Below are positions 24,831 to 31,210 of a stretch of 64,000 nt of DNA, in pieces. Every line of letters starts with the position of its first letter. Position 1 is the stretch's first letter. A program made the translations under genes and the position numbers. The DNA comes from Bryobacteraceae bacterium (GTDB lineage: Bacteria > Acidobacteriota > Terriglobia > Bryobacterales > Bryobacteraceae). The notes under the pieces were generated by a model. It was not told where the DNA came from. It saw only the letters and a list, made by a program, of their open reading frames with translations, and did not search any database. The stretch spans positions 505,757-569,756 of the forward strand of contig JANWVY010000001.1 of the NCBI GenBank assembly GCA_025056455.1, in the 5' to 3' direction.

Positions 24831-24956
24831 CCAGCAACGCCGTTTCGGGCCTGTATCGCTTTGGCGGACATTCCCAGCATTTTTACAAGGCCAATCACGC
24901 GCTGCGAGCCACGCACGACATCTCTGGCTGGCTAGCGTAAAATGTGGGCGAGGCAC

Positions 24957-26906
24957 ATGAGAAGATTCATCCTACTTCTGTGCGTGCTGCCCCGCTTGCT
25001 GACCGCCGCGATCGACTTTGAAAAATCTGTCTATCCGGTTTTTGAGAAGGCAGGTTGCGCAAATTGTCATAAAGAAAACGGAGTAGCCTCACCCACTCGC
25101 TTACGGTTCCCGGAACAGAAACTCTCTTCTGCCGAACTTTTAGAATTTGGCAACTCGCTTTCCGTCCTGGTCGATCGAAGCAATCCCTCAAACTCGCTAC
25201 TGCTGACCAAGCCAACGGCGCGCCTGCCCCACGCTGGCGGCAAACGCATCTTCGCGGGCAGCCCAGAGGAGGCGGCGCTTCGAGCCTGGGTGGAGCATCT
25301 GGCAGCCTCTCCTCTGCCCCAACCGGGACGCGTACCGAAGGTGGCAGCACACGGCGCTGTGGGACCCGTACTGCGCCGGCTCACTCACGCGCAGTACAAC
25401 AACACGATTCGCGATTTGCTTGGCGACAATTCGAGGCTGGCCGATCAGTTCCCACCCGAGGATTTTGTCAATGGCTTCCGCAATCAGTACCAGGCGCAGA
25501 ACACTTCCCCCATGCTCGCCGAAGCCTACAGCGCCGCTGCCGAAAAGCTAGCCGGCCGTCTCTTTGTGGGCGGCGATCTGCGAGGCATTGTTCCGTGTAA
25601 GCAGAGAAGCTTCGACGACGCAGCCTGCCGGCAGCGTTTTGTACGGGAGTTCGGTCGGCGGGCCTTCCGTCGCCCTCTCCAGGCTGCCGAGCTCGAGCGT
25701 TATGACAAATTGTTTCAAATCGAAGCCAGGAAACGAAAACAGTTTTACGACGGCGCGCAGGTAGTGGTTGAGGTGATGCTGCAATCGCCCAATTTTCTCA
25801 TGCGCACGGAAAATGGCGCCGATCCTTCCCTGCGTCCCTATGAGATCGCATCCAAGCTTTCTTATTTCATCTGGAACAGCATGCCGGATGAGACTTTACT
25901 CGAGGCCGCAAGTCGCGGTGAGTTGAATCATCGCGAGGGTGTCGAGGCGCAGGCGCGCCGCCTGCTGCAATCGCCCAAAGCCCGGGAAAGCGTCAACACT
26001 TTTGTCGAAGAGTGGCTTCGCTTTGACCGGCTGCTCGGCGCAGTGCGGGACCGCCGGATTTATCCGCAATTTAATCTCGAGCTCACCACCGCCATGATGG
26101 AAGAAACCCGCCGCCTGGTCGCTGATTTAGTTTGGAACAAGCGGAATTTTATGGAGTTCTTCTCCGCGCCTTATAGCTTTGTCAACACCGATCTAGCGCG
26201 GCTATACGGGTTGCCGGCGCCCAAAAATGAGTACGATCGCATGTTGCTGCCTCCAGCGACAGGGCGAGGGGGCATCCTTGGCCAGGCAAGCTTCCTCACC
26301 ATGACCAGCAAGCCGGCGGAAACCTCTCCCACAGCGCGCGGGCTGTTCATCCGCGAGCAGTTTCTTTGTCAGGAAGTGCCTCAACCCCCACCGGGCGTAA
26401 ACGCCAACCTGCCCACGCTCACCAAAGACCGGCCGATGACCCAGCGCGAACGCCTCGCCATCCACTTAAACAATGAGAGTTGCGCAAGCTGCCATTCTCT
26501 TATCGATCCCATCGGGCTGGGCCTCGAAAAATTCGACGCGATTGGGGGCTACCGGGAAAAACTCACGCTCACCATTTTCCCGGGCAGGGGTGAACGTGAC
26601 GAAGAGCCCAAGACGGTGGAACTAGACCTGGACACGCGCGGCTATGTCGCGGGGCTGCAGAATTCTAACTTCTCTTCCCCGATAGAACTTGGTAAGATTT
26701 TGGCAGCGGAGCCTACTTGCCAGCGATGTGTCGTTAAACAGGTGTTCCGATACATGGCTGGACGGCACGAAACGCTTGCGGACCGGGAAGTTCTGGAGAA
26801 GTCTTTCGAGGACTTCCGTCGATCTGGGTTTCAGTTTCAAGAATTGATCGTGGCTTTAGCCAAATATTCGAGTTTCGCCGACGGAGCTTTCGCATGGCGT
26901 CAATAA
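24957..26906 (+). CDS. PSCyt1/DUF1592 secreted cytochrome-like protein
   Basis: The 649-residue product has a signal peptide ([18 protein letters not shown]) and then a cytochrome c-like PSCyt1 domain with CANCH near residue 34. It continues with the DUF1587, DUF1595, DUF1592, DUF1588 and DUF1585 series typical of Planctomycetota and Acidobacteriota ([33 protein letters not shown]; a second CASCH with [18 protein letters not shown]). ATG 24957 is preferred over ATG 24942, which is overlapped by a TAAAAT box. A DUF1552 gene overlaps its end by 13 bases, the usual partner. It is periplasmic or exported; the biochemical role of this gene set is unknown. Confidence 0.9.
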
Positions 26907-28234
26907 TCACGAAACAGCGCGCTCTATCCCGGCGCATTTTTCTGCGCGGCCTCACTCAAATGGGGTCCGCAGCGGTTGTGGGACTGCCCCCACTCGCGGC
27001 CATGTTCAACTCCCATGGCACAGCGTATGCTGCTTCTGCCAAAGAAGTTTCGCAAACACCCCCGACGCGCTTCGTGCTCTGGTTCAATGGCAATGGCATC
27101 CCAGAGCGATATTGGATTCCCACGGAAACCGGTTCCCAGTGGGTCATGACCCCGTGCCTGTCTCCGCTAGCGCCTTTTCGGAATGAGATTCATGTCATCA
27201 CCGGCCTGGACAACCCAGCCGCCCGTCTTCCTGGGCCGGGCAATGATCACCACCGCTCGATGAGTGCGCTGATGACCGGCACGCAATACACTGGGCGGGG
27301 AGCTGGGGGGCCTTCGATTGACCAGATGATTGCGGCCAAGCTAGGAGGCGATTCGCGGTTCCGCTCGCTTCAATTTGGCGTCTCCCAGGAGTCGTTTGGG
27401 GAAAGCATTCAGCGGAACATGAGCTGGGCAGGCTATGATCGCGCTCTTCCCCCTGAGATGTTGCCGCATAAGATGTTTGACCGTCTGTTTGGCGGCCGCG
27501 ATCTCGGCTGGGTCAACCGAAAGAAGAGCGTGCTCGACGCTGTGCTGGAGGATGCCGCCTCCCTGCGCAAGGCGCTGGGTCAAGAAGACAAACTGCGTTT
27601 GGAAGAGCATTTGGCCGCCGTACGTGACGTGGAGCGGGCCATCGCGAGCCTGCCGCCAGAGTATCGCCGACTCGATCCGCCCGAACTGGATGGCGATATG
27701 AAGGACTGGCCACGGATTGCGAAGCTGCAAAGCGAACTGCTCGTGCATGCATTCGCTTCGGGACAAACGCGGGTCGCTTCTTACATGTTGACGAAGTGTC
27801 AGGGGCTCGCGCGCTTTCCATGGCTTGGCTACACCGCGGCTCGCCATCACGACTACACGCATCGCGATGGGAAAGCGCCAGGAGCGGATGGTCCCGATGG
27901 CCAGCGCATCATGCGTGACATCTGCCGCTGGCACGTGGAAGAATTCGCTTGGCTCATTGGCCGCTTAAAGGCCACGCCCGAAGGGTCGGGAACCCTCCTC
28001 GACTCGACGCTGCTTCTTTTTGTTCATGAACATGCCGAAGCAAACGATCACAAAAACAATGGTCTTTCGGTAATTCTTGCCGGGTGTGCTGGCAAGCTCC
28101 TAACCGGTCTCCACACCCGAACCACGGGCACCATCGGGGATCTCTATCTGGCGGTTGCGAATAAGGCCCTGGGTGCTGGTTTGAACAGTTTCCCGACGGC
28201 CAGCCGTGAATTGAGCGGAATTTTCCGTTCCTAA
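26894..28234 (+). CDS. DUF1552 secreted protein
   Basis: This 446-residue DUF1552 protein has a Tat leader ([19 protein letters not shown]). The family pattern is visible in [27 protein letters not shown], and [15 protein letters not shown]. It starts inside the end of the DUF1592 gene (13-base overlap), so both are made together. DUF1552 proteins resemble DUF1501 (alkaline-phosphatase-like fold) and are always found beside PSCyt1/DUF1592 proteins. No experimentally known function applies. It converges on the next gene, with the two stops overlapping by 4 bases. Confidence 0.9.
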
Positions 28235-29303: not shown

Positions 29304-29660
29304 ATGTTCTGCACATCCTGCGGCAACTCGCTTCGGCATTCGGATCGCTTCTGTGCGCAGTGTGGCGCAGTAGTCAATTCCGCGGACCAAACCGCGAGTC
29401 CAGCGGTTGTTCTGAACGCTCCACGAAGACTCGAACGCCCTTTGAGGGACCGCAAACTTGCTGGTGTTTGCGCGGGATTTGCGCACTATTTTGGTTTCGA
29501 TGTAACGTTGATGCGGATTCTCTGGCTTGTGGGCACCTTCTACACCGTCGGGACGGGAATCATTGTCTACCTCATGTGCTGGGCCGTCATGCCATCCCAA
29601 GCGACAGCTCCCCTCGCCACAACCGCCGAATCTCCAGCTCCTTCTTCCCACCCAGCTTAG
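29304..29660 (+). CDS. Zinc-ribbon PspC-domain protein
   Basis: This 118-residue protein has an N-terminal zinc ribbon (MFCTSCGN...RFCAQCG, residues 1-21) and a PspC domain at about 45-105 (LRDRKLAGVCAGFAHYFGFD, then LMRILWLVGTFY, and a membrane helix GIIVYLMCWAVMP). PspC proteins bind the inner membrane and take part in envelope-stress signalling. ATG 29304 follows a GAGAGG ribosome site 7 bases upstream, which rules out the more distal in-frame start at 29235. It converges on a 48-residue membrane protein gene with a strong hairpin between them. Confidence 0.9.
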   Translation: MFCTSCGNSLRHSDRFCAQCGAVVNSADQTASPAVVLNAPRRLERPLRDRKLAGVCAGFAHYFGFDVTLMRILWLVGTFYTVGTGIIVYLMCWAVMPSQATAPLATTAESPAPSSHPA

Positions 29661-29671
29661 CCTGGAAACTG

Positions 29672-29696
29672 GCGGCGGCAGTCACTGTGCCGCCGC
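29672..29696. terminator. Strong GC hairpin between convergent genes
   Basis: A perfect 9-base stem GCGGCGGCA/TGCCGCCGC with a 7-base loop lies between the pspC-like stop and the stop of the small membrane protein. It probably blocks read-through in both directions. No T-run follows on either strand, so it is not a canonical intrinsic terminator. Confidence 0.5.
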
Positions 29697-29724: not shown

Positions 29725-29871
29725 CTATTCAAGCATGCGAATGGCGAACAACAATCCACCCACTACGACCACCGAAATCAGCGCCGTGACAATGTACTTG
29801 GTGATCCGCTCCCGCGGCGTGGACTCGCGCTCGGCGTCATGCTTCATGGTTTCATCGAGGCTTTCAAACAT
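29725..29871 (-). CDS. 48-residue single-helix membrane protein
   Basis: A short minus-strand frame encodes MFESLDETMKHDAERE, then STPRERITKY, a membrane helix IVTALISVVVVGGLLFAI and the tail RMLE. A near-perfect ribosome site AGGAGG lies at 29880-29885, 8 bases before the ATG, the best in this window. The charged N-terminal half with a C-terminal helix suggests a tail-anchored inner-membrane protein. A promoter-like pair lies about 205 bases upstream (30078-30106), so the transcript has a long leader. It faces the PspC gene, which hints at envelope function. The family is not recognised with certainty. Confidence 0.72.
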   Translation of the reverse strand: MFESLDETMKHDAERESTPRERITKYIVTALISVVVVGGLLFAIRMLE

Positions 29872-30319
29872 GGTGAACACCTCCTGCTAACTTGGCTGCA
29901 CACATGATGCCAACCCCTCTGGTCTCAGGTACGCGGTCCTTTACAGTCTCACTCCCAGCCGCGCCTGATACCCAGCATCCGTTTCTAAGCGCCCAGAATA
30001 CAACAGCGGAACCCTACCCCTCGGTCCGCCGTTGCGGCGATTCACCCAGTCCAGCTTCACAACATGCTGGCCCCCGTATTGTATTCAGATCGAACAGCGA
30101 AGGCAACGGGTGGGCTATTTCGCCAACCAGCGAGATTCGAGCCCAGTAAAAGTGGGTGATTTGGCGCGGCCTTAAAACCAGGGCAGAGTCCCCTTGCCCG
30201 CGAGGGGCGAAACAATCAGTTGGCCTGCCACTGGTCACAACGTTCCCGGTCGCGCCTTTCCAACACGTGCCGAGTAACCTCGGCAAAACAGGCAACGCCT
30301 TTCCCAGCTGACACACCGT
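29872..30319. other. 448-base intergenic region with long leader and hairpins
   Basis: No protein-coding frame here looks real. On the minus strand it holds the putative leader of the 48-residue protein gene, with small hairpins such as CCAGC/GCTGG (about 30052-30071) and CGCCG-TTG-CGGCG (about 30030-30042). On the plus strand, 35 bases before the dienelactone hydrolase gene, there is a perfect 7-base hairpin TGCCGAG-TAAC-CTCGGCA at 30268-30285. The function of these structures is unknown. Confidence 0.45.
30078..30106 (-). promoter_or_regulatory. Candidate sigma70-type promoter
   Basis: On the minus strand, TTGCCT (30101-30106) and TACAAT (30078-30083) are separated by exactly 17 bases. This is the best two-box promoter seen in the window. 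It points at the 48-residue membrane protein gene starting at 29871. Confidence 0.5.
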
Positions 30320-31210
30320 ATGGAGCGCAAAAAGGCATCAGATTTTCCCCAAGAATTACTGAACTTGTTCGACCGTTATGTCCACGGCGAGATCGAACGG
30401 CGGGAGTTTCTAGACGGGGCGCAAAAGTTTGCCAGCGGTGGTGTGACGGCCCTCATGTTGTGGGAAAGTCTGCGTCCCAACTATGCCTGGGCGCAGCAGG
30501 TCCCCAAAGATGACAGCCGCATTCGGGCTAGCTATCAGACCGTCCCCTCCCCCCAAGGCAACGGCTCAATCCGCGGCTACTTGGTCCGGCCGTCTCGATC
30601 CACGGCGAAACTGCCGGGCATCATGGTGGTGCATGAAAACCGGGGATTAAATCCCTACATTGAAGATGTCGCGCGGCGTCTCGCCCTAGAGAACTACCTT
30701 GCGTTTGCACCAGACGGCCTGACTAGTGTGGGAGGTTACCCCGGTGATGATGAGAAAGGCGCGGCGGCTTTCCGGCAGGTAGATCGGGAAAAGATGGCCG
30801 AGGATTTTCTCGCCGCAGCTCGCTGGCTCAAGGCGCACCTGGAATGCACGGGCAAGGTTGGCGTGGTTGGATTCTGCTTCGGTGGCGGCATTGCGAACGC
30901 GATGGCCGTGAGGATGGGATCAGATCTCCATGCCGCAGTGTCTTTCTATGGGGGCCAGCCGCCGGCCGCAGATGTGGCCAAAATAAAGGCGCCCGTTTTG
31001 CTCCACTACGCCTCGTTGGACAAGCGCATCAACGATGGCTGGCCAGCCTACGAAGCCGCGCTCAAGGCGAACGGCGTCAGCTACACCATGCATATGTACG
31101 AAGGCGTCAATCACGGCTTTCATAACGACACGACCCCACGTTATGACCAGGCAGCAGCACAACTAGCCTGGCAGAGAACCCTCGAATTTTTCGCCCAACA
31201 TCTCCGCTAG
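30320..31210 (+). CDS. Dienelactone hydrolase family protein
   Basis: This 296-residue alpha/beta-hydrolase has a Cys nucleophile in GFCFGGG (near residue 183), an acid in SLDKRINDGW and the catalytic His in EGVNHGFHND. These are the DLH triad, so it should cleave a lactone or ester. The first 60 residues form an extension with RREFLDGAQKFASGGVTAL, a weak Tat-like leader, so export is possible. A leader hairpin lies just upstream at 30268-30285. It is the first of a run of plus-strand genes, but the next start is 87 bases away, so co-transcription is only likely. Confidence 0.9.
   Translation: MERKKASDFPQELLNLFDRYVHGEIERREFLDGAQKFASGGVTALMLWESLRPNYAWAQQVPKDDSRIRASYQTVPSPQGNGSIRGYLVRPSRSTAKLPGIMVVHENRGLNPYIEDVARRLALENYLAFAPDGLTSVGGYPGDDEKGAAAFRQVDREKMAEDFLAAARWLKAHLECTGKVGVVGFCFGGGIANAMAVRMGSDLHAAVSFYGGQPPAADVAKIKAPVLLHYASLDKRINDGWPAYEAALKANGVSYTMHMYEGVNHGFHNDTTPRYDQAAAQLAWQRTLEFFAQHLR

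Follow-up and report, generated by a model that had tools for sequence, protein, structure and literature searches.

The window is a stretch of DNA of 64,000 nucleotides from a Bryobacteraceae bacterium. On its minus strand, an open reading frame running from an ATG at 29871 to a stop codon at 29725 translates into a protein of 48 amino acids, MFESLDETMKHDAERESTPRERITKYIVTALISVVVVGGLLFAIRMLE (window 29871-29725, minus strand). The genes and features around it are listed below in window coordinates.

29304-29660, plus strand: gene with a zinc ribbon and a PspC domain, convergent neighbour, near the small-protein gene in one of 86 loci, the window's own
29672-29696, strand-neutral: GC-rich hairpin with a 9-bp stem, in the gap that separates the PspC gene from the convergent small-protein gene, from sequence and folding
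29725-29871, minus strand: small-protein gene, stop codon included, from family-wide conservation, third-position variation and a two-helix model
29872-30070, minus strand: predicted untranslated leader of about 199 nt, without a counterpart and of ordinary structure
29880-29885, minus strand: Shine-Dalgarno sequence AGGAGG, 8 bases 5' of the ATG
30078-30083, minus strand: predicted -10 box TACAAT, with TA[TCG]AAT upstream in 10 of 10 non-redundant genus loci
30101-30106, minus strand: predicted -35 box TTGCCT, part of a [GT]TGC-N19-TA[TCG]AAT pattern
30320-31210, plus strand: dienelactone-hydrolase-like gene with a YqhI-like N-terminus, divergent, near the small-protein gene in one of 86 loci, the window's own

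Elsewhere in the window, at 24942-28234, a DUF1592/DUF1588-type gene adjoins a DUF1552 (HXXSHH) gene.

The small protein and its family

The original prediction had described a 48-residue reading frame with AGGAGG 8 bases 5' of its ATG and a single C-terminal membrane helix. Frame and ribosome site are both present at 29725-29885 on the minus strand, and hydropathy gives one membrane segment at about residues 24-46. The start codon it chose is borne out by M1-F2, which is invariant in homologue alignments of 26 and 63 sequences, and most homologues are preceded by similar purine-rich GGAGG-type ribosome sites. Homologues were compared across 86 distinct loci: from 99 relatives in the named genome collection 80 were kept, one duplicate (L154) was removed, and six earlier loci and the window were added. 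The protein is 48 residues long in 72 of these loci and 47-50 in 85, the remaining one encoding a longer form of 57 residues. The consensus reads MF[DE]SLD[ED]xMKHD, followed by a variable acidic stretch and a conserved ER; next come W/Y, the membrane helix with GGLY at its end, and R.LE. An AlphaFold2 model (mean pLDDT 87, pTM 0.49) places helices at residues 2-15 and 19-47, and the basic residues ahead of the membrane helix suggest that the N-terminus is cytoplasmic.

The protein proved to be conserved across the family. Among 60 related genomes besides the window's own, near-full-length homologues (at least 46 of the 48 residues at E ≤ 3.2e-5) were present in 11 of 11 genomes of the same genus and in 16 of 25 from other genera of the family, while none of 24 genomes from other families of the order or class had one (best E 0.0146). 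The most similar homologue found shares 77% protein identity with that of the window. A profile search detected the gene in 153 of 200 family genomes at E ≤ 0.01 and in 146 at E ≤ 1e-4; for seven of the 153 the E value falls in the range 4.6e-4 to 0.01, so these could be chance matches. Three genomes (G127, G128 and G141) each gave four profile matches at E ≤ 0.01, so paralogues may exist there. Across the phylum, 88 of 297 genomes matched at E ≤ 0.1, the best besides the window's own at E 1.6e-4. The matches listed were partial and nearly all within longer frames, so none was counted as a homologue, and no convincing copy was seen outside the family in this search. As far as searched, the small protein appears limited to Bryobacteraceae, the family being read from the titles of the named relatives: Bryobacterales, Bryobacteraceae, Solibacter and other acidobacterial names, with two exceptions. 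These two, L120 and L133 (titles Arcobacter and Acidimicrobiia), carry typical small-protein genes, and their assemblies are probably mislabelled. Comparing the window with the 11 other genus loci gives totals of 142 differences at first, 84 at second and 310 at third codon positions (the comparisons are not independent); third positions are the most variable, and the gene shows purifying selection. Judged from this conservation, 29725-29871 on the minus strand is a real, conserved gene.

We asked whether the protein resembled anything known. At E ≤ 1 the window protein had no match among the Pfam and NCBIfam models, and a PDB sequence search returned nothing better than E 0.63. Foldseek found no match to the model in the PDB at E ≤ 10, as is expected for two helices. 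The best weak Pfam matches of its relatives were to EssA (PF10661; 10 of 26 aligned members, best E 7.8e-4) and DUF5326 (PF17260; seven of 26, best E 6.6e-4), neither of which is matched by the window protein at E ≤ 1, and two of 26 members weakly matched the NCBIfam model of NADH-quinone oxidoreductase subunit J (best E 0.0071). We tentatively read all three as membrane-helix likeness. Subunit IV of aa3-type cytochrome c oxidase (1m56_D, 5weh_D) is likewise about 50 residues long with a similar hydrophobic stretch, but the match covers only 19 residues at E 5.8-5.9, which is chance level. Among the papers listed in the literature search, none is about this protein, judged by titles and abstract openings, and the main text of PMC10903887 has no mention of Acidobacteria, Solibacter or Bryobacter.

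At 48 residues with one predicted membrane helix, the protein falls within the size of small single-pass proteins (up to about 60 residues). AcrZ, CydX and MgrB are small single-pass membrane regulators or accessory subunits. The protein shares with them a length below about 50 residues, one membrane helix and a gene of its own, and differs in having no confident match in Pfam, NCBIfam or the PDB; its kind is thus familiar, even though the libraries searched contain nothing that matches it confidently. SecE combines a short amphipathic helix with a single membrane helix behind it, the two-helix AlphaFold2 model has the same plan, and one of 26 members matches PF00584 at E 0.014, so that the gene might encode a second or degenerate SecE. 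We consider this very improbable and reject the identity: the window protein has no PF00584 match at E ≤ 1, and a full SecE (E 7e-18) sits separately in the same genome, the sole match there at E ≤ 0.001.

Promoter, leader and the TCATA element

TTGCCT-17-TACAAT lies at 30106-30078 on the minus strand, with 206 bases from hexamer to ATG. Alone it is at chance level (one found against 1.2 expected in 3 kb, both strands), and the promoter gains weight only because relatives share its pattern. Within 240 bases upstream, all 10 non-redundant genus loci contain TA[TCG]AAT, compared with a mean of 0.62 and at most 5 in shuffles. The fuller pattern [GT]TGC-N19-TA[TCG]AAT, a sigma-70-type pair of -35 and -10 boxes at conserved spacing, occurs in 8 of the 10, one of them the window's TTGCCT-17-TACAAT, and in none of 200 shuffles, although it was written only after viewing the genus loci. 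Outside the genus, within 130 bases, the strict -10 box is found in 31 of 67 loci (4.54 in shuffles) and the fuller pattern in six of 67 (0.04). A GG-N10-GC match ending 25 bases before the window's gene was considered as a sigma-54 promoter and rejected, as relatives do not repeat it at that position.

The distances from genus boxes to the ATG are 206, 142, 184, 142, 129, 140, 160, 161, 159, 160 and 143 bases, and 70 in L088; L088 is thus the one exception among 12 genus loci, the box of the other 11 lying 129-206 bases upstream, with the window's distance the longest. Elsewhere, -10-like boxes fall at -60 to -41 in 22 of 67 non-genus loci and at -80 to -61 in 11, other 20-base bins holding 0-6. 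Since the boxes lie far upstream in the genus and 40-80 bases away elsewhere, the long leader looks like a genus trait. The original prediction had placed a promoter about 205 bases upstream and a leader of about 200 bases behind it; the promoter, at chance level alone, agrees with the pattern common to the genus loci, and through that shared pattern a leader of about 200 nt before the small gene is likely.

The same prediction had proposed a structured leader with control at the RNA level, and this part is not supported. The proposal that the 199-nt leader is an RNA switch controlling translation draws on the long leader predicted in 11 of 12 genus loci and on the minimum-energy fold of the window, which pairs bases just 5' of the ATG. 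One genus leader, that of L087, folds clearly better than shuffles (z -2.60). For 11 of the 12 genus leaders (the short one of L088 was excluded), RNAalifold gave a weak consensus of five pairs that includes the ribosome site, three of them changed on both sides yet kept, but its energy is just -0.67 kcal/mol; for 14 leaders from elsewhere, hand-picked as alike among 74 non-genus loci, it gave no pairs and a consensus of 0 kcal/mol. The window leader folds ordinarily (z -1.18, 25 of 200 shuffles as stable; mfe z -0.76 with the first codons included). Across 50 loci, those of a 77-locus set in which a -10 box was found, folding and ribosome-site opening were like those of shuffles (mean z -0.12 for mfe and +0.17 for opening). 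The idea that GGYCTC might pair with the ribosome site in relatives was dropped, as this opening test revealed no such pairing overall. Leaders are common to some close genus relatives (L100-L103; L089 and L095), but that of the window has no counterpart: against 11 other genus genomes it gave only short, chance-like matches, the best of them (47 bases, E 0.012) falling on a contig that does not carry the small gene, and against the 85 other loci no match rose above chance. The leader conservation that was looked for is thus absent for the window as far as the available genomes reach. Rfam at gathering scores returned no match in the window and no known riboswitch or cis-regulatory leader, and a new structured cis-regulatory RNA was marked by neither conserved sequence nor covarying structure in the relatives examined, the closest homologue among them at 77%. 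We therefore regard an RNA switch as quite improbable, and the leader as more likely a passive spacer.

A different signal emerged from the leaders of relatives. In the 77-locus set (loci with 400 or 420 bases upstream and at most 80% identity to any kept locus), TCATA is the top-ranked 5-mer, present in 33 leaders compared with 5.9 in shuffles. It is strand-biased, its reverse complement TATGA occurring in two of 77 leaders and, over a longer stretch, in six of 74 against 6.0 expected. Copies often lie close behind the -10 box and are sometimes repeated, and GGCYTCATA occurs 11 times against 0.05 expected, a pattern written after viewing the loci. When all 74 non-genus loci were counted with redundancy kept, TCATA was found in 31 of 74 leaders of the small gene (6.3 expected) but was not enriched upstream of the facing gene described below (5 of 55, 5.8 expected) or of a kinase gene (2 of 18, 1.3 expected); of the three gene starts examined, only that of the small gene shows the enrichment. 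Examples of YTCATA can be seen in the leaders of L048, L107, L112 and L121. A DNA operator or RNA-binding site that regulates the small gene in much of the family would account for the enrichment, the strand bias and the specificity. The element is, however, absent from 44 of 77 loci, present in only four of 10 genus loci, and missing from the stretch tested in the window, 165 to 14 bases before the gene, and we hold such a site to be a tentative possibility rather than a probable one. The strand-biased TCATA hints at some leader- or operator-level control, which weighs against a purely passive leader.

Neighbouring genes and the CHASE2 kinase

The original prediction had also noted a PspC gene facing the small gene across a hairpin, and from it had suggested a link to envelope stress. 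Gene and hairpin are present, and the two genes are convergent. The hairpin, whose stem is 9 bp long, has a folding energy of -20.2 kcal/mol (z -1.46), which 17 of 200 shuffles equalled or bettered; no T-run follows on either strand, so it is not a canonical intrinsic terminator, and it is absent from the terminator scan listing. The likeness to phage-shock systems lies in this convergent PspC gene. Within the flanks covered, a PspC gene lies near the small gene in the window alone of 86 loci; the linkage is not conserved there, and the envelope-stress suggestion is not supported.

Neighbour searches covered flanks of up to 8 kb at most loci and less at some, and among the genes tested no neighbour common to the 12 genus loci was found. 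Outside the genus, 72 loci extend at least 900 bases downstream, and in 55 of them a convergent glucosaminidase-like gene faces the small gene. Of two such genes tested, one matched PF01832 at E 5.5e-4, under the cut-off, and the other matched nothing. A strict -10 box precedes this facing gene in 28 of 55 stretches (4.1 in shuffles), and it too therefore seems to have its own promoter. The common arrangement, seen at L113 and similar loci and reaching from some 3.4 kb upstream of the small gene to 0.7 kb beyond it, is CHASE2 kinase, NtrC-type regulator, small gene and convergent glucosaminidase-like gene. None of the 12 genus loci keeps it, although all 12 genomes have a homologue of the kinase elsewhere (E ≤ 1.1e-171) and one of the facing gene.

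These neighbours raise the question of whether a CHASE2 sensor kinase and its NtrC-type sigma-54 regulator have a dedicated modulator in the small protein. In 27 of 68 non-genus loci the same strand carries a regulator gene no more than 4 kb upstream, and in 19 of the 68 that gene ends within 300 bp; the kinase and regulator domains were confirmed at two loci. Against this, 41 of the 68 lack a regulator within 4 kb, none of the 12 genus loci retains the linkage, and in many loci a -10 box belonging to the small gene separates it from the regulator gene. Co-occurrence is likewise two-sided. The kinase was detected at E ≤ 1e-110 in 173 of 200 family genomes. Taking these to be the same 200 genomes as in the small-gene counts (the labels agree), the small gene occurs in 145 of the 173 genomes that have the kinase and in eight of the 27 that lack it (Fisher p 2e-8, ancestry ignored), or six of the 27 at E ≤ 1e-4. 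By genus, 60 of 69 with the kinase have the small gene and nine have the kinase alone, while the seven without the kinase lack the small gene, save for weak matches (E 0.0025 and 0.0099) in one. In an RpoB tree built from 26 genomes, a single clade holds four of the five kinase-less rows, with two changes in all, so the co-absence is largely the shared ancestry of one lineage. For this tree, three of 30 genomes gave no RpoB match, as was the case for three of the seven kinase-less genera, and G114, with RpoB in two pieces, was excluded; the positions of G132 and G097, taken from a wrong longer reading frame (odd lengths, composition flags), are meaningless. Overall, a dedicated modulator of the kinase pair seems unlikely to us, and the joint reading, in which the 48-residue protein tunes the CHASE2/sigma-54 pair and the leaders of relatives carry a TCATA operator or RNA-binding site, is improbable.

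Proposed role of the small protein

The reading we favour, with modest confidence, is that of a stand-alone gene: an inner-membrane protein apparently restricted to Bryobacteraceae, with its own sigma-70-like promoter and a long passive leader, that docks on a larger partner. Under this stand-alone reading, the gene would be transcribed from its own promoter (-10 box TACAAT), with a leader that homology suggests was lengthened in the window's genus, and the strong ribosome site would drive translation. The acidic amphipathic N-terminal helix (MF[DE]SLD..MKHD) would lie on the cytoplasmic face, and the membrane helix may dock through its G-G-L-Y face on the larger membrane partner, which the small protein would stabilise or tune. 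We infer the partner, the topology and the membrane location. By analogy with other small membrane proteins, our best guess is that it serves a membrane complex as an accessory subunit.

Gene callers readily overlook small membrane proteins. The one described here is retained in roughly three in four of the family genomes searched, the named ones being mostly metagenome assemblies, and it therefore probably has a steady role in these bacteria. Concrete starting points for studying it are the family alignment, the promoter and the leader element.
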